From: Alphaproteobacteria bacterium
GTDB taxonomy: Bacteria > Pseudomonadota > Alphaproteobacteria > UBA9219
Direction: 5' to 3'
Assembly: GCA_028716765.1 (NCBI GenBank)
Contig: JAQUPC010000050.1
Coordinates: forward strand, 1-15,007
DNA: 15,007 nucleotides
Shown: positions 1-10,162 of the stretch, piece by piece
Layout: each line of letters opens with the position of its first letter
Position numbering within the stretch: the stretch's first letter is position 1
Notes under the pieces: generated by a model
Told to the model about the DNA's origin: nothing
The model's input: the letters and a program-made list of their open reading frames with translations, nothing else
The model's database searches: none
Program-made: the position numbers and the translations under genes

Positions 1-91
1 GAGCGGCGACAACGCCGATCAGAAACAAATTCACGGCCAGAGACGCCAGAACAAGCCATCGCAATTTGGACGTATCTAATAAATTTTTCAT
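1..91 (-). CDS. Putative periplasmic heavy-metal sensor (CnrX/Spy-like), N-terminal fragment
   Basis: Only the first 30 or so codons lie in the window; the gene runs off the left edge. The start codon overlaps the stop of the upstream membrane-protein gene in an ATGA arrangement, which indicates translational coupling. The visible N-terminus (MKNLLDTSKLRWLVLASLAV..., then NLFLIGVVAA) is a short basic stretch followed by one hydrophobic segment. That is the signal-anchor typical of the periplasmic heavy-metal-resistance (Metal_resist / CnrX-like) family often encoded beside ECF sigma factors. The family call is inferred from this N-terminus and from gene order; the diagnostic periplasmic helical domain with its metal ligands is not in view. 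Any other single-span periplasmic protein remains possible. Confidence 0.45.
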   Translation of the reverse strand, partial: MKNLLDTSKLRWLVLASLAVNLFLIGVVAA

Positions 92-438
92 GGTTGAAGC
101 GCTCCTTGTGCGGCCATCCAGTTTTGCCAGGGGTTCGCCATAACGCCAATGGAAAAATTCGTGGCCCTCCGCGCCGGATAAACCGGCGAAAGATTTTGTC
201 CCGCAACAATCCCCAGCATGATTAGTGCGCACGCCGCCAAAACGCCCGAACTTAAAGGAAAAGACATAAACAAAGCGTGGTGCGCCGCGTGCACGCCCGC
301 AACTGCAGACGTCTGGGGCGTATTCAAGGCGCCCTCGAGAATGCGAGCCTCCAACCGTGCCGTGCGTTCATGCGACAGGCAACCTGCCGGATCGCACTCT
401 ATTAAAATCGTTTTAAGTTGGCCGTCCGTCATGGTCAT
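88..438 (-). CDS. Small one-span membrane protein, candidate anti-sigma factor
   Basis: This 116-residue protein starts 1 nt after the stop of the ECF sigma gene, behind a good GGGGAGG ribosome site that lies inside the sigma gene's end. A cytoplasmic N-terminal part (about residues 1-55) contains a polar helix (SHERTARLEARILEGAL). One transmembrane segment follows at about residues 60-80, then a short periplasmic tail with Trp and Pro residues. Position between a sigma factor and a putative metal-sensor protein, and size, match small anti-sigma factors such as CnrY in the CnrYXH system. I see no ZAS (HxxxCxxC) zinc motif. An alternative in-frame ATG lies two codons downstream. The anti-sigma role is inferred from context; the sequence itself shows only a small membrane protein. 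Confidence 0.6.
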   Translation of the reverse strand: MTMTDGQLKTILIECDPAGCLSHERTARLEARILEGALNTPQTSAVAGVHAAHHALFMSFPLSSGVLAACALIMLGIVAGQNLSPVYPARRATNFSIGVMANPWQNWMAAQGALQP

Positions 439-439
439 G

Positions 440-1006
440 TCAGATGTCCTCCCCCCACTTTAATCCCGATTCAAGCATGCCCTTCCGCAACGCACGCCGC
501 GCCCTCACCAAAAGCGATTCAACGGCCCCGGCCGATAGCTGCATTGCGCGCGCGATCTCTTGTCCGCTCAGGTCCTCAAAATAGGACAACACAACCGCGG
601 CCCTCTGCCGTTCTGGCAGTTGCCGCAAGAGAGATTGAACCACCCGTTGCTTGTCGTGAAGGTGGGCGTTCTCAAATCCCCCGGCCGCCGGATCAACTAT
701 CCCGCCCGCCGCCTCAAGCGGCAAAGGCTTGCGCTTACGTCCCCTGTCCAGACACAGATTGACGACCACGCGGCTCAGCCACGTCCGCACCTGGGCCGGA
801 CCGTATGGATCCCACCTTGGCGCCTGCATCCAGAGGCGCAAAAAAGCCTCCTGCGCCACATCGTCGGCATCGGAAGCGTTCCCGGTCATGCGCTGCGCCA
901 AAGCCGTCATCGTTCTCACGTGCCTTCCCACAAGGCAGGCATAGGCCTGCACGTCGCCCACGGCCACTCCGGCCATAAGTTCATGATCGCCGGCGTTCAG
1001 CGCCAT
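440..1006 (-). CDS. ECF-family RNA polymerase sigma factor
   Basis: This 188-residue protein is a sigma70 region 2 plus region 4 protein of the extracytoplasmic-function class, redirecting RNA polymerase to a small regulon. Region 2 is seen in the stretch with RMTGNASDADDVAQEAFLRL (core-binding and -10 recognition). Region 4 is seen in LPERQRAAVVLSYFEDLSG followed by QEIARAMQLSAGAVESLLVR, the helix-turn-helix that reads the -35 element. I start at the ATG giving MALNAGDHELMAG, the usual ECF N-terminus, with GAGGA just upstream. The longer frame beginning at a GTG at 1117 would start inside the promoter-like motif. Downstream genes are coupled (1-nt gap, then ATGA overlap), so the sigma, its probable anti-sigma and a sensor form one operon. 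It probably activates its own promoter and the divergent EF-hand gene. It resembles CnrH-type sigma factors, but the ECF subgroup cannot be fixed by eye. Confidence 0.92.
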   Translation of the reverse strand: MALNAGDHELMAGVAVGDVQAYACLVGRHVRTMTALAQRMTGNASDADDVAQEAFLRLWMQAPRWDPYGPAQVRTWLSRVVVNLCLDRGRKRKPLPLEAAGGIVDPAAGGFENAHLHDKQRVVQSLLRQLPERQRAAVVLSYFEDLSGQEIARAMQLSAGAVESLLVRARRALRKGMLESGLKWGEDI

Positions 1007-1112
1007 GTCCTCACGGGTCGAGCAAGCAGACGGACGCACTGCGCCGTCGCGCGACGTTGTCAAAATTGACCTCTTCTTCGTTCGAACCAGCTCTCTCTTC
1101 TTCCCGGCAATA

Positions 1113-1140
1113 TACACGTTACCAAAACGTTATTCCTGCG
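1113..1140 (-). promoter_or_regulatory. Probable autoregulated ECF promoter of the sigma operon
   Basis: Read on the minus strand this is CGCAGGAA, eight variable bases, then TGGTAACGTGTA. The same pattern with identical spacing occurs on the plus strand before the EF-hand gene (1178-1205). GGAA is a typical ECF -35 core and CGTGTA fits a -10 region, although the spacing between them is shorter than in classical sigmaE promoters, so the exact -10 hexamer is uncertain. Transcription would begin roughly 100 nt upstream of the sigma start codon. Confidence 0.6.
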
Positions 1141-1272: not shown

Positions 1273-2064
1273 ATGAGCAGTATCAGTAGCGTATCCAACA
1301 GCCAACACGCCTATCTCCAACAACAACTCTTCAAAAAAATCGACACGGACAGCGACGGCAAGGTCAGCAAGGACGAATTCGTTAACGGAAGACCGGACGA
1401 CGTCAGCGAAGCCACTGCGGAAAAACTTTTCAACAAACTCGACAGCAGCGGCGTCGGCTCTTTGTCCGAATCCGACTTTGAGAACATGGGGCCGCAAGAT
1501 CAGTCTGGCGGCAGCATGGGCCGTCTCGATCCCGGCATGATGATGAGCATGATGAACGGGCTCGGCCAAAGCCAGGATTCAGACAGCAATAGTCCGTTCG
1601 AAGACATGTTTAGCCAGATCGACACGGACGGTGATGGTTCCATCACCAAGGACGAGTTCGTCGCTGCCCGCCCGTCGGACGTAAGCGAAAGCGACTCGGC
1701 CAGCCTGTTCGCCAAGATCGATACCGAGGGGACGGGATCCGTTACGGAAGACCAGTTCGTGAGCGGTATGCAGGAGAACGGCCCGCCGCCGCCGCCACCG
1801 GGCGGCATGTCGTCGCTGTCCGGCACGGATGCAACGACTGCCCTCCAGGATCTGCTGTCTTCGCTCCTGAATGAAGACAGCGACAGCAGCACGTCAAGCA
1901 CGGACACGGCAGCTTCAAGTTCAACGGATTCGACGGATTCGACGGCAACTACGACGCTGGCCTCGGCCTTGCAGGAATTTTTGCAAGCGCTGGAGTCGTA
2001 TATGACGGCGTCAAAATACACGGACACGACGGATGTGACATCGCTGCTTTCCGCAACGGCATGA
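1273..2064 (+). CDS. EF-hand calcium-binding-like protein
   Basis: This 263-residue protein has two EF-hand pairs. Loop 1 (DTDSDGKVSKDE, residues 24-35) and loop 3 (DTDGDGSITKDE, 117-128) have all canonical ligands. Loops 2 (57-68) and 4 (from 150) are degenerate, ending in Asp and Gln where the bidentate Glu is expected. The two halves share the flanking pattern KDEFV..[GA]RP.DVSE, so the protein arose by internal duplication. A Met/Gly/Gln linker separates them. A run of six prolines (171-176) and a Ser/Thr/Asp-rich tail follow, ending in a predicted helix. There is no obvious signal peptide. A strong AAGGAG lies before the start. A shared promoter motif links it to the divergent sigma operon, so it is probably induced by that system. 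Binding of Ca2+ is inferred from the loops; the cellular role is unknown. Confidence 0.88.
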   Translation: MSSISSVSNSQHAYLQQQLFKKIDTDSDGKVSKDEFVNGRPDDVSEATAEKLFNKLDSSGVGSLSESDFENMGPQDQSGGSMGRLDPGMMMSMMNGLGQSQDSDSNSPFEDMFSQIDTDGDGSITKDEFVAARPSDVSESDSASLFAKIDTEGTGSVTEDQFVSGMQENGPPPPPPGGMSSLSGTDATTALQDLLSSLLNEDSDSSTSSTDTAASSSTDSTDSTATTTLASALQEFLQALESYMTASKYTDTTDVTSLLSATA

Positions 2065-3040: not shown

Positions 3041-4174
3041 ATGAATAAAATTCTCTTGAGCACTACGGCAATTGCCCTTTTGCTTATGGCTGCGCCTGCT
3101 TTTGCTCTCGATGCCAACGGCAATGAAATCGAGAACGGCTCCGGCCTGACAGCGACACAATACAACACGAACGTCGATGTCGATGCCGAGTTCGAGGCCA
3201 CCAAGAACACGTCGATCGATTCCAACAACACCGACACGGACGTCGACGTGACCAAGAATACGGCGATCAATTCCGGCAACACCGACACGGACGTTGACGT
3301 CGAAAAGAACACCAACGTCGCTTCGGGCAACACGCTGACCAATAACGAGACGGACGTCGACGTGACCAAGAACACGGCGGTATCCTCCAGCAACACCGAA
3401 ACCAACGTTGATGTCGAAAAGAACACCAACGTCGCTTCGGGCAACACGGTGACCAATAACGAGACGGATGTCGACGTGACCAAGAACACGGCGATCAATT
3501 CCGGCAACACCGACACGAACGTTGACGTCGAAAAGAACACCAACGTCGCTTCGGGCAACACGCTGACCAAGACGGATACGGACGTCAGCGTGGTGAAGAC
3601 GGACGACTCCTTCAACACGACGAACGTCAACAAGACGGAGGACTCCTTCAACACGACGAACGAGACCGAAGTTGATGTGACGAAGAACACCAACGTCGCC
3701 TCGGGCAACACCGTGACAAACACGGAAAACAAGACGGAGAACGAGGTGGACGTCAGCATGTCCAAGACGACCACGATCGATTCTCACGACACCGAAACCG
3801 AAATCGACGTGGAGAAGACGTCCACGATCGCTTCGGGCAACACGACCGCATCGGGCAACTCCTATGCGGACAACGACAACTCGTGGTCGTACGATAACGA
3901 CTCGGATGTCCGTCACACCAGCATCGACATCCAGAAAAACGAGTTGATTGCGACGCAGATCCTCAGCGCCTCGGTCTCGGGCAACCGCGTCGAGTTCGAG
4001 AACAAGGGCGAGGTTGAGCATGCCGGCAGCGGCATGGGCAACAATGTCGGCACGGGGAACGCAAGCTTCTCCATGTCCGGAAACGGCCTCGCTTCGGCGC
4101 AAGGCCAGACCGGTCTGAACACCGCCGGCATCAGCACCATGGCTACGACCATTCAGGTGAACGGCGGCCTGTAA
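3041..4174 (+). CDS. Secreted Asn/Thr/Asp repeat protein, candidate functional-amyloid subunit (FapC-like)
   Basis: This 377-residue protein has a clear Sec signal peptide (cleavage after AFA, residue 22). Residues about 54-267 are imperfect repeats of the form [TE]KNTxxxSGNTxTxxDVDV. Alternating 17- and 21-residue units form 38-residue super-units; three consecutive ones span 71-184. The repeats alternate polar and valine residues, as in beta-strand-turn amyloid or beta-solenoid folds, and are rich in N, T, D, S and G. There is no Cys and almost no aromatic residue. The C-terminal part (about 297-377) changes character: IQKNELIATQILSASVSG, then Gly/Asn-rich GNNVGTGNASFSMSGNG, resembling FapB/FapC-type sequence. 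AGGAGGGA precedes the start. It is the first gene of an operon with a C39 protease and a FapF-like exporter, which is the main reason for the amyloid call. It lacks the C-terminal CxxC I associate with Pseudomonas FapC. An adhesin-like beta-solenoid is the alternative. Confidence 0.75.
   Translation: MNKILLSTTAIALLLMAAPAFALDANGNEIENGSGLTATQYNTNVDVDAEFEATKNTSIDSNNTDTDVDVTKNTAINSGNTDTDVDVEKNTNVASGNTLTNNETDVDVTKNTAVSSSNTETNVDVEKNTNVASGNTVTNNETDVDVTKNTAINSGNTDTNVDVEKNTNVASGNTLTKTDTDVSVVKTDDSFNTTNVNKTEDSFNTTNETEVDVTKNTNVASGNTVTNTENKTENEVDVSMSKTTTIDSHDTETEIDVEKTSTIASGNTTASGNSYADNDNSWSYDNDSDVRHTSIDIQKNELIATQILSASVSGNRVEFENKGEVEHAGSGMGNNVGTGNASFSMSGNGLASAQGQTGLNTAGISTMATTIQVNGGL
3200..3841 (+). repeat. 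Intragenic tandem repeats encoding the amyloid-like repeat domain
   Basis: The coding repeat has a period of 114 bp (38 codons) at its most regular part, 3251-3592. For example GTCGAAAAGAACACCAACGT recurs at 3299, 3413 and 3527. Outer units are more diverged and vary in length. Strong nucleotide identity between neighbouring units indicates recent unit duplication or homogenisation by recombination, so unit number may vary between strains. Confidence 0.9.
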
Positions 4175-4183
4175 GTGAGACCC

Positions 4184-4208
4184 GGGAAGGGAGACGTCCT
4201 CCCTTCCC
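4184..4208 (+). other. Stem-loop 1 after the amyloid gene
   Basis: A perfect 10-bp inverted repeat GGGAAGGGAG / CTCCCTTCCC with a 5-nt loop begins 10 nt after the stop codon. No U-tract follows, so it is not a standard terminator. It may protect the upstream message end or cause partial attenuation. Confidence 0.7.
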
Positions 4209-4221
4209 CAATACTCGGGGC

Positions 4222-4250
4222 GCCCGCGCCGGTGAAATGCCGGCGCGGGC
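4222..4250 (+). other. Stem-loop 2 after the amyloid gene
   Basis: A perfect 11-bp GC-only inverted repeat GCCCGCGCCGG / CCGGCGCGGGC with a 7-nt loop, again with no U-tract, lies 13 nt after the first hairpin and 48 nt before the next gene. Together the two hairpins probably set the ratio of amyloid subunit to downstream accessory proteins. Confidence 0.7.
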
Positions 4251-4297
4251 CTCCACAAAGCATATATTCGCAACCAACTAACAAACGGGAGGCTTTC

Positions 4298-4681
4298 ATG
4301 CGTTATTCGATCGCGAAAACGATGGCCTTGCTGATATTGGGATTTGTTTCGCTCGCAGGAAGCGCCGGCGCAAGTTTTGCCGCCGAAGACGTCCTTGCCA
4401 GCGATAGCGTGTTTGAGTCAGCGGATGAATCGTCCATGTCGGTCACGGAAATGGATGTAAACCGCGGCACATTCGGCATCAACGCCCTAACGTCGGAACA
4501 GGCTCTGGCGGCTGAAACAACCGGCAACGCCTTGATCGTCGGCGGCAATATGACGAACGGCACCATCGCCATCGGCGACAATGTCGGCGGGTTCGGCAGC
4601 TACGTGATGAACACGGGCAACAATTCCACGATCAATTCCGCCGTCGCCGTGAACGTCCAGCTGGCGCCTTCTGCGCCCTAA
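4298..4681 (+). CDS. Small secreted Fap-locus protein (possible minor subunit or nucleator)
   Basis: This 127-residue protein starts at the ATG after ACGGGAGGC; an upstream in-frame extension runs through the two hairpins and is not credible. Signal peptide: residues 1-29, ending SFAA. The mature N-terminus is acidic (EDVLASDSVFESADESS) and leads into EMDVNRGTFG (51-60). The C-terminal half is Gly/Asn-rich with short hydrophobic strands (GNALIVGGNMTNGTIAIGDN) and ends in NTGNNSTINSAVAVNVQL. Two of these elements, RG-[GT]-F and NT..N..[IV]...[VM].[VI]N[VI].L, recur in the same order in the protein at 5610-6368, so the two are likely related. It lies between the amyloid candidate and the C39 protease, about where FapB/FapC-like genes sit in Pseudomonas. 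A role as minor subunit, nucleator or protease substrate is inferred; I do not recognise a named family with certainty. Confidence 0.75.
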   Translation: MRYSIAKTMALLILGFVSLAGSAGASFAAEDVLASDSVFESADESSMSVTEMDVNRGTFGINALTSEQALAAETTGNALIVGGNMTNGTIAIGDNVGGFGSYVMNTGNNSTINSAVAVNVQLAPSAP

Positions 4682-4705
4682 ACCTTATCGCCTTGGTGCG
4701 TCAAA

Positions 4706-5599
4706 ATGACGAAGAGTCCGTTTCTATCCGCCCTTGCCCTTTCCCTGTTTCTCCTTGCAGGAACGGCCGGGCTGAACGCGGCGCAGGCGGAAGATGACGC
4801 CTCGACTCTCCCCCCCGCCGCCATTGTCGGGGTGGAAACGCTGAACGTGCGGCCCGGCGAATCTTTCGAGGGAAGCGAGGACCCGACGAACCGGGCGTCC
4901 GTGGATGTCGGCAACGGCATGATCGAGACGGTTTCGGTTCGCGTCATCAGCTGGCGCGATCTGCCTTTCCAGACCGTGAAGCGCCAGGCGTTCGATTTCA
5001 GCTGCGGTTCGGCGGCGGTTGCGACGCTGTTGTCCTACGTTTACGGCCTCCCGGCTTCCGAAGAACACGTTTTCAAAACCATGTTCGCGCACGGCAATCA
5101 AAACAAAATCCGCCGCGAGGGCTTTTCGCTTCTGGACATGAGCCGCTATCTGAACAGCCGCGGCTTGAAGGCCAAGGGCTACCGGCTCGACTTCGCCAGG
5201 ATCGAAAAGCACAAAGCCCCCTTCATCGCGCTCATCAAGCACGACGGGTACAGCCATTTTGTGGTCGTGAAGAGCATGAAGGGTCCGCTTGTTCTGGTGG
5301 GCGACCCCAGCAAAGGCAACGTCGTTTACACGCGCCAGGATTTTGCGAAGGTCTGGAACGGCATTTCTCTGGTCGTCACGAACGAAGCGCGCAAGGCGCG
5401 GGAGGCCTTCGCGGACAGCGCCGATTGGCACTACGCGCGGGCGACGGCATTTGCGGCCCTCGGCAATGACATCGTGAACGATAGCGTCGATCTCCCGTTC
5501 CCGAACTGGCAGATCGCGCCGACGGGGCTGGATATCATACAATCGACCGTGATCAACAACGTCAACACGGTGACAAATTCGGCATCAACAACCTTTTAA
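4706..5599 (+). CDS. fapD: C39-family cysteine protease, FapD-like
   Basis: This 297-residue protein has a signal peptide (residues about 1-28, ending AAQA), so it acts in the periplasm. The C39 domain spans roughly 80-225. It contains oxyanion Gln94 and nucleophile Cys100 in KRQAFDFSCGSAAVATLLS, His184 in GYSHFVVVKS, and Asp200 in VLVGDPSKG, all expected positions for the papain-like peptidase seen in bacteriocin exporters and in FapD. Unlike bacteriocin ABC exporters it has no transmembrane or ATPase domain. The stop-to-start gap from the preceding gene is 24 nt and no strong ribosome site is visible, hinting at coupling. A tail after the domain (about 226-297) ends in PTGLDIIQSTVINNVNTVTN, which looks like the Asn/Thr-rich ends of the neighbouring secreted proteins. 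In Pseudomonas, FapD is needed for Fap export; the same job is inferred here. Confidence 0.85.
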   Translation: MTKSPFLSALALSLFLLAGTAGLNAAQAEDDASTLPPAAIVGVETLNVRPGESFEGSEDPTNRASVDVGNGMIETVSVRVISWRDLPFQTVKRQAFDFSCGSAAVATLLSYVYGLPASEEHVFKTMFAHGNQNKIRREGFSLLDMSRYLNSRGLKAKGYRLDFARIEKHKAPFIALIKHDGYSHFVVVKSMKGPLVLVGDPSKGNVVYTRQDFAKVWNGISLVVTNEARKAREAFADSADWHYARATAFAALGNDIVNDSVDLPFPNWQIAPTGLDIIQSTVINNVNTVTNSASTTF

Positions 5600-5609
5600 G
5601 GAGGGGGCA

Positions 5610-6368
5610 ATGAATAAATGGCGCGGCTTTGCATCGCATGTCCTTACCCCGGCCCTGCTTGCGGGATTTCTTCTTGCGGGCGGCGTCAATCCTGTTTTCG
5701 CCAGCGGCGATCTGGGAGACGAACCTGTTCTGGCGGACGTTGAAGACGTTCAGGACGAAGACGTTCTTGCGGACACCGGCAACGAATCCGCCGTTGCGGA
5801 TGCCGAAGACTATGAAGACTATGCGGCCTCAGGCGGGGCGGAAGTTGAAACCGTCTTCGCGGATGTCGGTGATGAAATCATTATGGCGGACGCCGAAGTC
5901 CTGTACGCCTCGGATATGGAAGAAACCCGCGGCGGATTCATAGACCCCACGGGGCTTATTTTCCGCTTTGCCGTTGACGTCCGCACTCGCATCGACGGCA
6001 TCGTATCCTATGCCCGGTCCCTCGTTCTCGAGCCCGGAATCGGAGGCCATTTGCAAGCTTCCTCCACCACGAAGATTCAGGAGGCCCCAAATCTTCCGGT
6101 TGGCACCATCGCCAGCATCATTGAAAACGGCAACGGAATCGTCGTCGACGACAACAGCGGCAAGACGACCGTCCTGAATCAGACCCCCACGGGGTCTATC
6201 GCCAGCGTCATCACGAATACGGCGGACAACCGCGTTGTTTCCCAGACGATGGACATCAACATCATATTGAATAATATCCCGAATCTGCGCTCGCATGGCC
6301 ACGGGTCGGGAGGCTTTTCAGCCTTTTCGCAAGGTATTCGGTCGCGGGCAATGGGTCATGGCCGTTAA
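5610..6368 (+). CDS. Acidic secreted Fap-locus protein with RGGF motif
   Basis: This 252-residue protein lies 10 nt after the C39 protease gene behind AAGGAGGGGG, so the two are co-translated. Signal peptide: about residues 1-31 (ending VFA). Residues 33-105 are very acidic with five or so repeats of the form [DE]xVxAD. The segment then reads LYASDMEETRGGFIDPTGLI (98-117), a double-glycine-like site with Leu and Met at positions -12 and -7. The C-terminal half has an internal repeat, GTIASIIEN (165-173) and GSIASVITN (195-203), then NTADNRVVSQTMDINIIL and a His/Gly/Arg-rich tail. The RG-[GT]-F and NT..N..[IV] elements are shared with the small protein at 4298-4681. Its place between fapD- and fapF-like genes is that of FapE in Pseudomonas, but I cannot confirm homology by eye. 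It may be a minor fibre component, chaperone or C39 substrate. Confidence 0.75.
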   Translation: MNKWRGFASHVLTPALLAGFLLAGGVNPVFASGDLGDEPVLADVEDVQDEDVLADTGNESAVADAEDYEDYAASGGAEVETVFADVGDEIIMADAEVLYASDMEETRGGFIDPTGLIFRFAVDVRTRIDGIVSYARSLVLEPGIGGHLQASSTTKIQEAPNLPVGTIASIIENGNGIVVDDNSGKTTVLNQTPTGSIASVITNTADNRVVSQTMDINIILNNIPNLRSHGHGSGGFSAFSQGIRSRAMGHGR

Positions 6369-6405
6369 AAAGTATTAACGAAATAATAACAATTTATGGT
6401 TTTAC

Positions 6406-6446
6406 GGCCACAGCACTACCGCTCTTGGTCGGTGTAGGGGCTTTTT
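6406..6446 (+). terminator. Weak imperfect hairpin before the exporter gene
   Basis: GCC...CTACCG and its partner CGGTGTAG..GGC form a bulged stem followed by five T residues, in the 165-nt gap between the acidic protein and the FapF-like gene. It could attenuate read-through into the exporter gene; pairing is imperfect. Confidence 0.25.
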
Positions 6447-6533
6447 AACTTGACCAAAAGATAGAATATCTTCAAAAGTCAAGGGGTTAGGTAAATCTCC
6501 TTTCCGTCTGCCCTTTTCTTTCAGAGGTTCACA

Positions 6534-7895
6534 ATGAAAAATGCCGTGCGTTTCGTTGCCGTTCTTGCGGCCGTTCTTGCGTGTCTTTTGTTGGCGGACA
6601 GGGTCGAGGCCAAGACTCCGGCCAGCGATCCGTCGGGCGTTCAAGACCTTCTGAAGCGCCTTGAGCCGCTGGAAAAGATCGTAAAATCCCAACAGGCGGC
6701 GCTCGACGAACAAAAGAAAAAAATCGCCGAGCAGGACAAGGAGCTGAAGCTTTACCGCGAAAAGCTCAATGCGATGGAAACCTCGGCGGCCAAATCCGTT
6801 AAGGGCAAAAAGGGCGCGTCTACGGCAATAGCGGACGAGACGAAGCCCTATCCTTCCGAAGTTGCTGAAGCAAAAACGGGCCCGAAAGGAAAGACGGCTT
6901 CATCGGACGTCGCCGAGTCGTCCAAAACGTCCATCGCCGCCCCCAGGAAAGAGGAAGAAAGCCGTCCGCAGCTCGACGTTCTGCCCGATTACGGCGGCGT
7001 GCTGACGCCCAAGGGCACGCTGATGTACGAAAACAGCAGCGAATACACGAACACGACGAACAACATATTCACGTTTAACGGCGTGCAGGTGGCCGAGGTC
7101 GTCCTCGTCGGCCAGATCGAGGCCACGTCGGCGCGGCGGCAAGTTCTGCAAAACTCGTCGCGTTTCCGCCTCGGCCTCACCGACAGGCTTGAAACCGATG
7201 TCCGCATGCCCTTCTCTTACCGCAACGACGCCGAAACCAGGACAGCCAACGGCGGCTCTTCGCGCTCCTCGCTCGAAGGCCACGGCTTTGGCGACGTCGA
7301 TATGGGCGTCGCGTATCAGCTTAACCGCGGCACGGGCGGATGGCCTTATTTTGTCGGCAACCTGCGCTACAAGACCGACACCGGCGAAGGCCCCTACGAC
7401 GTGGAATATGACGCCAACAACATCGCCAAGAGCCTGCCCACGGGCACCGGCTTCAAGACGGCGGAAGGCAGCGTAACGGTCATCAAGGTTTCGGACCCGG
7501 CCGTGCTGTTCGGCAACCTTGGCTACGTCTACAGCTTCGGCGAAGACGTGAACAAGGACTTCAACGAAACGCGCGTTCTCGACGTTTCGCCGGGCGGCGC
7601 TTTCAACGCCAGCACGGGCATGGGCTTTTCGATCAATCAGGAGACGTCGTTCACGCTGGGATATAAGCACAGCTACGTGATGCCGACCTACCAGCACGCG
7701 ATCAACACCACGAACAACACCCCGGTCGAAAGCCGGAGCGACTCGCTTAACGTCGGCGCGCTTCTGGTGGGGACAAGCTACCGCTTCTCGCCCGCCGTCA
7801 GCCTCAACCTGACGACTGAAGTCGGTGCGACCGCCGATGCGCCCGACGTCGTCGTCGGCCTTCGCGTTCCGGTTCGTTTAGGCGATTTCTTCTAA
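6534..7895 (+). CDS. fapF: FapF-like outer-membrane amyloid exporter (coiled coil plus beta-barrel)
   Basis: This 453-residue protein has a signal peptide (about 1-26, ending VEA). Residues about 36-82 form a heptad-rich coiled coil (DLLKRLEPLEKIVKSQQAAL and on to LYREKLNAM), like the trimerising periplasmic domain of Pseudomonas FapF. A disordered Lys/Ala/Ser/Glu linker runs to about 145. The barrel begins LPDYGGVLTPKGTLMYENSS, continues with repeated amphipathic strands such as LTDRLETDVRMPFSYR, and ends VVVGLRVPVRLGDFF with the terminal Phe expected of BAM-inserted porins. The GVLTPKGTL...LEYS..-type opening and the VQVAEVVLVGQIEA stretch are characteristic of the FapF/transporter family. 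In Pseudomonas the FapF pore secretes amyloid subunits. It is the last gene of the locus, behind AGAGG, and is followed by a strong terminator. Confidence 0.88.
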   Translation: MKNAVRFVAVLAAVLACLLLADRVEAKTPASDPSGVQDLLKRLEPLEKIVKSQQAALDEQKKKIAEQDKELKLYREKLNAMETSAAKSVKGKKGASTAIADETKPYPSEVAEAKTGPKGKTASSDVAESSKTSIAAPRKEEESRPQLDVLPDYGGVLTPKGTLMYENSSEYTNTTNNIFTFNGVQVAEVVLVGQIEATSARRQVLQNSSRFRLGLTDRLETDVRMPFSYRNDAETRTANGGSSRSSLEGHGFGDVDMGVAYQLNRGTGGWPYFVGNLRYKTDTGEGPYDVEYDANNIAKSLPTGTGFKTAEGSVTVIKVSDPAVLFGNLGYVYSFGEDVNKDFNETRVLDVSPGGAFNASTGMGFSINQETSFTLGYKHSYVMPTYQHAINTTNNTPVESRSDSLNVGALLVGTSYRFSPAVSLNLTTEVGATADAPDVVVGLRVPVRLGDFF

Positions 7896-7920
7896 TAACG
7901 CGCGCTCACAGGCGCATAAA

Positions 7921-7955
7921 AAACGCTCCCTGTTTCTCGCAGGGAGCGTTTTTTT
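7921..7955. terminator. Strong bidirectional terminator
   Basis: A 12-bp perfect stem AAACGCTCCCTG / CAGGGAGCGTTT with a 7-nt loop has a run of T residues on the plus side and a run of A residues on the left, giving U-tracts for both directions. It ends the amyloid operon and also faces the minus-strand rpmB remnant and 281-residue gene. Confidence 0.93.
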
Positions 7956-8998: not shown

Positions 8999-9026
8999 CT
9001 TGTCGTCTTAACGATGTTTCTTAAGC

Positions 9027-9320
9027 TTACGCGCTCTTCCGCGCCTGCGCCTTCACAAGCTGCTTGCGGACCTTGAGGGCGGTTTCGGTCAGGCGGCTGG
9101 GGCGCGCGCCGAGCAGCCAGGCATCGATGCCGCCGTTGTGCTCGACTGTGCGGATGCCGTTCGCGGTGAGGCGCAACTTGATCATCTTGCCGAGAATCTC
9201 GGACGGAAACGAGCACACCTGCAGGTTCGGCTGCCAGCGGCGGCGCGTCTTGTTGTTCGCGTGGCTGACCTTGTTGCCGAAATGCGGCTTCTTGCCGGTC
9301 ACTGTGCATACGCGGGCCAT
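9027..9320 (-). CDS. rpmB: 50S ribosomal protein L28, copy 2
   Basis: This 97-residue L28 is identical to copy 1 except Ala72. The ATG giving MARVCTVTGK is chosen over an in-frame upstream start at 9401, because the upstream stretch contains the promoter and AAGGA lies just before this ATG. It is flanked by ubiG upstream and has its own promoter and terminator. Since its promoter -35 is embedded in the ubiG stop codon and the similarity with copy 1 ends at that point, this looks like the ancestral locus and copy 1 the derived one. Confidence 0.97.
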   Translation of the reverse strand: MARVCTVTGKKPHFGNKVSHANNKTRRRWQPNLQVCSFPSEILGKMIKLRLTANGIRTVEHNGGIDAWLLGARPSRLTETALKVRKQLVKAQARKSA

Positions 9321-9371
9321 GTTATTCCTTCTCCGGCGCTCGGCCGGTTTCTTCCTCTGCTTCGAGGCGGC

Positions 9372-9401
9372 TTTATAGGCGGCGGGCCGAAGGCAAGTCA
9401 A
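9372..9401 (-). promoter_or_regulatory. Sigma70-type promoter of rpmB copy 2, overlapping the ubiG stop
   Basis: Minus strand TTGACT, 18-nt spacer, TATAAA. The TGA stop of ubiG is part of the -35 hexamer, so the two genes are packed end to end. Confidence 0.82.
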
Positions 9402-10162
9402 GCTTTGGCGGGAACGCCCTCTTTAACGGCCGTGAGCAGATAGTTAATTCGTAAATCGTGCTTTTTCAGGCCGAAAACGCCTGTCAGGGGGTCGAAAACG
9501 AGGCCCGTTAGATCGCTAACGGCCAAACCCTTGCTTTCCAGTTCTTTGGCCAGTTCCGAAGGCCTCACGAATTTCTCCCAATTATGCGTCCCCCGCGGCA
9601 CCCAGCCCAGAACGTATTCCGCCGCAAGGACGCCAAAAAGATAGCTGGCCGTAGTGCGATTCAGCGTTGCCATTATAAGCAACCCGCCAGGCTTGAGCAT
9701 CGGCGCCAGTGCGCCGAGAAACGGACTCCGGGCGGCCGTATGCTCGATGACATCCAGCGCCGTGATGACGTCGAACCGCGCCTTGCCTTTGGACATTTCT
9801 TCGACGCTGCCCACGCGATAGTTGACGGAAAGACCGGCGTCTCCGGCGTGCCGTTTGGCCACGGCTATTGCTTCGTTCGAGGCGTCCAACCCGGTGGCAC
9901 CGGCGCCAAGGCGAACCAAGGCCTCCGTCATCAAACCGCCGCCGCACCCGGCGTCCAGCACCCGAAGCCCCTTTAGCGGATGGAGCAAATCCGGCTTGCG
10001 TTTAAAGGCGCCGCAAACCTGATTTTTTACATACTCGACGCGCAAGGGATTGATGCGATGCAAAATGCGGAACGCTCCCTCAGGGCGCCACCACTCTCCG
10101 GCCAGCGCCGAAAAGCGGGCTACTTCCTCCTCGGCGAGGCTGGGCGCGGCTTGAATCATCAT
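9398..10162 (-). CDS. ubiG: Ubiquinone biosynthesis O-methyltransferase
   Basis: This 254-residue class I SAM-dependent methyltransferase catalyses both O-methylations of ubiquinone synthesis at the inner membrane. The UbiG-specific N-terminus is seen (EEVARFSALAGEWWRPEGAF, then LHRINPLRVEYV). SAM-binding motif I is DAGCGGG (70-76). ALDVIEHT and MLKPGGLLIMATLNRT are the post-I and motif III regions, and the NWEKFVRPSEL stretch is typical of UbiG. Length is normal for the family. It starts at tandem ATG codons behind AAAGG; either is possible. Transcription is divergent from lysC across a 125-nt gap. It identifies the organism as a ubiquinone-using respirer. Confidence 0.95.
   Translation of the reverse strand: MMIQAAPSLAEEEVARFSALAGEWWRPEGAFRILHRINPLRVEYVKNQVCGAFKRKPDLLHPLKGLRVLDAGCGGGLMTEALVRLGAGATGLDASNEAIAVAKRHAGDAGLSVNYRVGSVEEMSKGKARFDVITALDVIEHTAARSPFLGALAPMLKPGGLLIMATLNRTTASYLFGVLAAEYVLGWVPRGTHNWEKFVRPSELAKELESKGLAVSDLTGLVFDPLTGVFGLKKHDLRINYLLTAVKEGVPAKA

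Follow-up and report, generated by a model that had tools for sequence, protein, structure and literature searches.

The stretch analysed here (15,007 nucleotides of contig JAQUPC010000050.1 from an alphaproteobacterial assembly, GCA_028716765.1; hereafter the window) contains a compact Fap-like locus of five genes, g1 to g5, on the plus strand between positions 3041 and 7895. A first-pass annotation, made from the sequence, had described five plus-strand genes ending at a strong terminator. We recovered all five open reading frames (ORFs) where it had placed them, followed 3' of g5 by an intrinsic terminator on the plus strand, a hairpin with a U run at 7918-7954 (-32.3 kcal/mol, z -6.2; absent from the output of a pattern scan). 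The genes encode a 377-aa repeat protein (g1, 3041-4174), a small protein of 127 aa (g2, 4298-4681, with a mechanical ORF start at 4175), a 297-aa FapD-like C39 peptidase (g3, 4706-5599), a 252-aa protein in the position after the protease, that of FapE (g4, 5610-6368), and a 453-aa protein that homology identifies as a FapF-like outer-membrane secretion pore (g5, 6534-7895). Clear ribosome-binding sites are present at g1, g2 and g4, and all five N-termini show a hydrophobic stretch followed by an A-x-A-like site, which we read by eye as predicted signals.

The peptidase and the pore

The g3 product had been taken for a FapD-like C39 protease, and profile searches agree. It matches Pfam Peptidase_C39 (E 5.8e-23), and its best curated model is NCBIfam C39_FapD (E 6e-41, 140 bits, below the cut-off of 330). 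Over 156 aa it shares 39% identity with the FapD of locus L118, a complete fapABCDEF operon in which six curated models all score above their cut-offs. Residues Q94, C100, H184 and D200 of g3, located by alignment (4985-5305, plus strand), are invariant in 29 aligned sequences, and we take them to be catalytic from membership in the C39 family. The solved relatives of g3 are the double-glycine protease domains of AMS/PCAT exporters and of ComA. By sequence comparison, g3 is a homologue of FapD, a C39 peptidase with predicted export.

The assignment of the 453-residue product to the FapF type likewise held up, both in profile searches and in structure prediction. By sequence, g5 matches solved FapF chains in the PDB with an E-value of 1.2e-19, and it matches the NCBIfam FapF model at E 5e-32 (111 bits, below the cut-off of 700). 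An AlphaFold2 model built from a 29-row alignment (mean predicted local distance difference test score, pLDDT, of 76) has a long helix in a coiled-coil region (residues 34-88; 6633-6797, plus strand) and a beta-barrel (residues 162-451; 7017-7886, plus strand; AlphaFold2 and Foldseek), joined by a linker modelled at low confidence. In a Foldseek search with this model, ranks 1 to 18 were all FapF chains (E 9.4e-22 to 1.6e-16, target template modelling (TM) scores of 0.77-0.83; 0.80 for the top match), and the next match was the COG4313 uptake channel at 7.5e-12. Of the two PTG motifs, one survives as LPTG, while the first reads DTG and the plug FF reads VL; the roles of these residues are as described in PMC5557850. 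Sequence and modelled fold together make g5 a homologue of FapF, with an N-terminal helix and a barrel.

Models of FapA, FapB, FapC and FapE found no match to g1, g2 or g4 at E 1, and L118 matches all six Fap models. This agrees with the earlier description of unrecognised subunits and no obvious FapA. FapA is often absent from Fap operons. Because FapA, FapB, FapC and FapE have no match and the D and F proteins fall below curated cut-offs, we classify the locus, by sequence, as Fap-like and not as a Fap operon in the strict sense; the Fap-like label of the first-pass annotation stands for the pore and the protease, and not for Fap proper.

A double-glycine-type leader after the peptidase

What is new here is a double-glycine-type leader on the protein that follows the C39 peptidase, which offers a concrete candidate site for FapD-type peptidases and a predicted cut. 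In g4 the leader, EVLYASDMEETRGG/FI, lies at 5895-5942 on the plus strand, with the predicted cut between G109 and F110. Its residues (L-12, D-8, M-7, R-3, G-2, G-1, F+1) correspond to a consensus in post-protease proteins of hydrophobic -12 (V/L), E/D-8, L/M-7, R-3, G-2, G-1 and F+1, with a mixed -4 position (L/Q/A/M). R-3, G-2, G-1 and F+1 are the most conserved leader columns; column frequencies are 0.97 for L or M at -7, then 0.94 (R), 0.94 (G), 0.97 (G) and 0.86 (F), and of the g4 residues R107 is invariant and G109 conserved. The published C39 rule asks for hydrophobic residues at -12, -7 and -4 before GG, GA or GS (PMC10885120), and g4 agrees with it in L-12, M-7 and the GG at -2/-1 and departs from it in T-4. 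Beyond the leader, g4 is homologous over its length to post-C39 proteins elsewhere (pairwise hhalign 1.1e-14, and 3.2e-9 with the leader removed; all hhalign E-values given here are those of single comparisons).

A first leader profile scored at least 12 bits in 64 of 75 training proteins, in all five held-out close proteins (the window's among them), in four of seven held-out proteins of L117-L121 and in none of 297 other signal-like genes. Among the ORFs of the window, g4 has a leader score of 20.6 and the next ORF 3.3. The three held-out proteins below 12 bits are Pseudomonas-type FapE, in which the best-scoring stretch reaches 3.0-3.5 bits at the same site, IELKDQELA(T/Q)LRG(R/K)YV; the FapE of L118 reads IELKDQELATLRG(R)YV. 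At the level of sequence, Pseudomonas-type FapE thus has the same leader motif, ending in GR or GK. A second profile, trained outside the alphaproteobacteria (55 proteins, 44 aligned stretches), found the leader in alphaproteobacterial post-protease proteins, with 31 of 37 at 12 bits or more and 34 of 37 at 9 or more (11 of the 37 placed in the class by inference). It gave g4 14.3 bits, and its controls were low: 0 of 834 other genes and 0 of 920 shuffles reached 12 bits, and 3 of the 834 genes reached 9 (highest 10.3). All 34 proteins in an alignment search with g4 (query included) carry the motif at 7.8 bits or more, the queries being themselves motif-bearing. Rescanning whole ORFs in the 24 cases missed on the first scan revealed the motif in 15, and a further three of these proteins are Pseudomonas-type FapE.

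Outside the leader, the mature part of g4 is modelled with eight predicted strands at residues 117-221 (pLDDT 68-87 over 121-220). The segment between signal and leader (5720-5895) is acidic, contains degenerate repeats and is longer than in relatives; the residue after the predicted cut is number 110 in g4 and lies at 58-78 in proteins P0242-P0248.

The small protein before the protease, g2, is homologous over its length to pre-C39 proteins elsewhere (pairwise hhalign E 4.8e-22, with the window in both profiles), and its family does not match FapA (hhalign E 0.2). It carries a leader-like motif of its own, SSMSVTEMDVNRGT/FG (4430-4477, plus strand; read as SMSVTEMDVNRGT/F), with a predicted cut between T58 and F59. 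Three related loci (L002, L003 and L108) have RGA where g2 has RGT. Among pre-protease ORFs generally, the leader score reaches 12 or more in 29 of 88 and 9 or more in 37 of 88. Leader-like stretches also occur in FapA, or in proteins near its place, at L118 (10062-10499) and L120 (8001-8444 and 12269-12703): the Pseudomonas-type form is LSD(G/S)DFA.V.SG, and L120 has LEDGDLASIRGRF and LGDRDLERVVGRY. The first of the two L120 proteins had no match to the FapA model at E 0.01. FapA may be a decayed second substrate.

Repeat proteins, related loci and flanking DNA

The description of g1 as a repeat protein with a signal peptide proved sound: it has a predicted signal and a tandem repeat at 3200-3586 (plus strand; Tandem Repeats Finder and direct repeats) with a period of 114 nt, 3.1 copies and 87% matches, made up of a 17- and a 21-residue unit (spacings of 51 and 63 nt). 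It matches neither the FapB nor the FapC model, nor any Pfam family above its cut-off. The C-terminal unit of g1 (4058-4171, plus strand) resembles those of other g1-type proteins; the C-termini of the close family (three sequences) match a wide set in pairwise hhalign at E 1.5e-5, with the window in both profiles. Profiles of the C-terminal parts match between g1-type and g2-type proteins (hhalign 2.3e-11); direct comparison of these parts with FapB/FapC repeats gives weak values of 0.004 and 0.001, against 0.09 and 0.47 for the reversed control.

A set of 49 g1-type units cut out by pattern, a few of them spurious and most from L108, L113, L115 and L062, matches the FapB/FapC repeat profile at a pairwise hhalign E of 7.8e-6 (score 24.7; best of 100 column-shuffled controls 16.4), in agreement with published FapB/FapC motifs (PMC12392863). 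A model of these units found 54 of 6789 ORFs at 1e-3, all of them no more than 4.5 kb from a C39 gene; 37 of the 54 belong to the g1 set from which the model was built. Among the 75 ORFs of the window, the model ranks g2 first (E 0.0013); it does not pick out g1 and misses its C-terminal unit. From the unit-profile matches, the fibre units of related loci are probably distant kin of FapB/FapC, and by its own sequence g1 is mostly another repeat, of 17 and 21 aa. L115 encodes, at 11004-15878, a g1-type protein of 1624 aa in which a pattern for FapB-like units, F-x3-G-(V/I)-x3-QQNNG-x2-N, matches about 20 times.

We compared the window with loci from a profile scan in which the 29-row C39 alignment was run against one genome each of 84,980 species, keeping the best 80 of at least 586 confirmed relatives. 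Within these 80, a FapF-type barrel gene accompanies the C39 gene in 75, many on the other strand, and L001-L003 alone are close to the window (51-55% identity). All three are metagenome-assembled genomes, labelled Alphaproteobacteria, proteobacterium and Rhodospirillaceae, and such labels on the nearest named relatives agree with the earlier impression of an alphaproteobacterial source. Named hosts among the same 80 include Asticcacaulis, Brevundimonas, Sphingopyxis, Pelagibius, Cupriavidus, Massilia, Marinobacter and Photobacterium, and barrel-bearing C39 loci occur in alpha-, beta-, gamma- and deltaproteobacteria. A g5-type protein (E 1e-10 or better) is present in 16 of 385 genomes from the class of genome G002, itself included.

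For gene context we counted 97 C39 genes (the window, the 80 loci and fetched regions), of which 68 have more than 5 kb on both sides. In these 68, the DNA upstream of the C39 gene holds a repeat-rich gene with a signal-like start in 56, a gene of 100-200 aa stands directly before the protease in 58, the post-protease protein carries the leader in 55 (first scan), a barrel gene lies within 5 kb in 63, and all four features coincide in 39. The five-gene order does recur: L108 matches the window gene for gene and in strand (g1-g2-g3-g4-g5), at identities of 25, 44, 54, 33 and 51% (the g1 match scored without composition correction), and L002 has all five genes with g5 inverted. Since homologous loci again contain the repeat gene and the C39 neighbour, neither of the outcomes named in the first-pass annotation as fatal to its reading, a best match to unrelated porins with no C39 neighbour in relatives or homologous loci lacking the repeat gene, was found. 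Judged by these sequences, the window locus is no one-off and belongs to a widespread group of Fap-like loci; on this point the reading of the first-pass annotation needs correction. Two of the loci are doubled: L120 (1-16000) has two fap-type operons side by side, with one barrel gene seen, and L121 (3988-9370) has two near-identical g1-g2-D-g4 sets in tandem.

In the g1-g2 gap, two strong RNA hairpins are predicted by folding on the plus strand (4184-4254; 4184-4208 and 4217-4254; -60.3 kcal/mol, z -5.7, with 0 of 200 shuffles equally stable), a possible transcript-balancing element. Farther out, rpmB (ribosomal protein L28) occurs twice, at 2138-2519 and 9025-9402, both on the minus strand (382 nt, 92.7% identity), as direct repeats on either side of the whole Fap-like block, which suggests insertion or duplication of the block. 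Four related genomes have one rpmB match each; in G003 a partial match shares a contig with lysC, and the second copy in the window is also near lysC. Upstream lie an ECF-type (extracytoplasmic function) sigma factor gene (440-1117, minus strand), adjoined by a small ORF with a hydrophobic stretch (88-438, minus strand), and a gene for an EF-hand protein (1273-2064, plus strand).

Proposed mechanism and relation to known systems

We consider it likely that the window encodes a Fap-like secretion operon in which g3 is predicted to cut the g4 leader, and g1 and g2 are exported through g5, likely to form a surface fibre. In this model, all five proteins would cross the inner membrane by Sec, and g3 would then remove the g4 leader in the periplasm, cutting after G109, and perhaps also cut g2 after T58. 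Freed by the cut, mature g4 would help with export or anchoring at g5, the role proposed for FapE, and g1 and g2 would leave through g5 and assemble into a fibre serving surface attachment or biofilm formation, with g1 likely as its main subunit and g2 in a minor or nucleating role. The steps of cutting, export and assembly are modelled on experiments with FapD and FapF (PMC5557850) and on C39 leader rules (PMC10885120). Whether the wider set amounts to a large, mostly unnamed proteobacterial branch of Fap-like systems strikes us as an even question. In such a branch, substrates carrying the leader (the post-protease protein and the small pre-protease protein) would be sorted twice, by a Sec signal and then by a C39-cut leader that licenses FapF-type export, and classical FapE would be a late GR/GK variant and a direct FapD substrate.

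Several observations weigh against cleavage and fibre export as just described. The threonine at -4 of g4 is not hydrophobic and departs from the C39 rule, and the leader helix of the g4 model (residues 100-106) has a pLDDT near 50, which is low confidence. No FapE model matches g4 at E 1, and a fold search with the g4 model was also without a match; g4 and classical FapE are alike just in the leader and about 10 residues after it (hhalign 2e-4; 0.12 without the leader), although the FapE model does match the leader region in two of three related post-D proteins tried (E 1e-3 and 9e-3). The classical FapE site is GR or GK, not GG. The first profile gave 12 bits or more to 2 of 875 shuffles. 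Six of the 24 cases missed on the first scan stayed without a leader on rescanning, three (L079, L046 and L048) with none in the post-protease ORF and three with no such ORF (L006 and L068 at a contig end, L060 not at one), ORFs having been chosen by simple heuristics. The leader of g2 is weak: it ends in RGT, where GT misfits GG/GA/GS, and at 2.8 bits it is the best-scoring stretch of g2 yet third among the window's ORFs. By sequence, g1 has no recognisable FapB/FapC repeats: the repeat profile listed neither g1 nor g2 at E 10, and a FapB or FapC with three imperfect repeats was found in L118, the positive control, and not in the window.

The GR or GK of classical FapE would fit a leader that stays uncut and docks its protein on the C39 peptidase or on the pore, with the C39 protein as a chaperone, and some type 1 systems do use a catalytically inactive C39-like domain (PMC5557850). 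We think this improbable, given that the expected catalytic residues of g3 are invariant, that the columns flanking the predicted cut (R-3, G-2, G-1, F+1) are the best conserved of the leader, and that the FapD mutation C38A abolishes secretion (PMC5557850). The gene order (subunits, D, E position, F), which is that of L118, and the match of g1-type units from other loci to the FapB/FapC repeat profile (E 7.8e-6) would also suit a fap operon (fapC-fapB-fapD-fapE-fapF) that has diverged so far that its subunits are no longer recognised. That origin is unlikely in view of g1, g2 and g4, which escape every FapA/B/C/E model at E 1 where L118 is matched by all six; in addition, g2, which carries a leader-like stretch, is no FapA (hhalign 0.2), and g1 is mostly a different 17/21-aa repeat that the unit model misses.

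It is doubtful, if somewhat easier to picture, that the product is a non-amyloid pilus, as may hold for Acinetobacter Fil fimbriae. In earlier work, fimbriae of this kind, made of FilA, were deduced to be present on cells of Acinetobacter Tol 5 (PMC3498257), and g3 also matches NCBIfam FilB (115 bits, cut-off 475) and g5 FilC (57 bits, cut-off 630). FapD and FapF outscore these two models, however, both of which fall short of their cut-offs, and g1 matches no pilin family above a cut-off. Least probable by far is a locus that makes no fibre, with g5 an uptake porin and g3 processing a small bacteriocin-like peptide. C39 peptidases usually process bacteriocins and the fold family of g5 includes the COG4313 channel, but FapF stands far above COG4313 (9.4e-22 vs 7.5e-12), the leader proteins start with predicted Sec signals and would leave about 69 and 143 residues once matured, and the five genes include no ABC exporter.

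If the predicted cut in g4 is real, it would answer what a FapD-type protease acts on. The active-site cysteine of FapD is required for FapC secretion, Fap proteins were stated to be without canonical C39 sites and the FapD target was described as unclear, and mass spectrometry gave no N-terminal FapE peptides (PMC5557850, 2017); more recently, FapD is thought to process the FapE N-terminus and the FapF periplasmic region (PMC12822426, 2025). Our comparison provides a named site, residue by residue, that could be mutated in an existing assay.

On distribution, the statement in the first-pass annotation that surveys centre on gamma-, beta- and deltaproteobacteria fits the 2013 survey, which in the excerpts seen reports fap in these classes alone (PMC3792158); later work is wider and adds fapD-fapF pairs in five further phyla (PMC6173800, 2018) and Fap operons in Desulfobacterota, Nitrospirota and Bacillota (PMC12822426). 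The latter screen required FapB/FapC repeats. Our comparison suggests that surveys of this kind would miss loci like that of the window and may therefore underestimate how diverse Fap-like fibres are. That D and F can lie together without a classical fap operon is already reported (PMC6173800), and the section of that review on such pairs mentions neither a leader nor proteins like g1, g2 and g4.

Set against known systems, the window shares with the Acinetobacter Fil fimbriae a C39 peptidase and a FapF-type pore, with lower similarity than to Fap (compared through the NCBIfam FilB/FilC models). With PCAT1, ComA and the AMS protease domain (6mpz) it shares the peptidase family and a leader with hydrophobic -12 and -7 and GG at -2/-1; unlike in the PCAT/AMS exporters, the peptidase is separate and predicted to be periplasmic, and a predicted Sec signal precedes the leader. 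With Pseudomonas fapABCDEF (FapF structures 5o65/5o67) the window has in common a C39 peptidase with a predicted Sec signal, the order D, E position, F, a pore with an N-terminal helix and one PTG motif, and a leader motif in the post-D protein. It differs from that operon in having no recognisable FapA, FapB, FapC or FapE, in the substitutions at the plug (FF to VL) and first PTG (to DTG) of the pore, in a small leader-like protein before D, and in the full GG site that g4 carries where Pseudomonas FapE has GR or GK.

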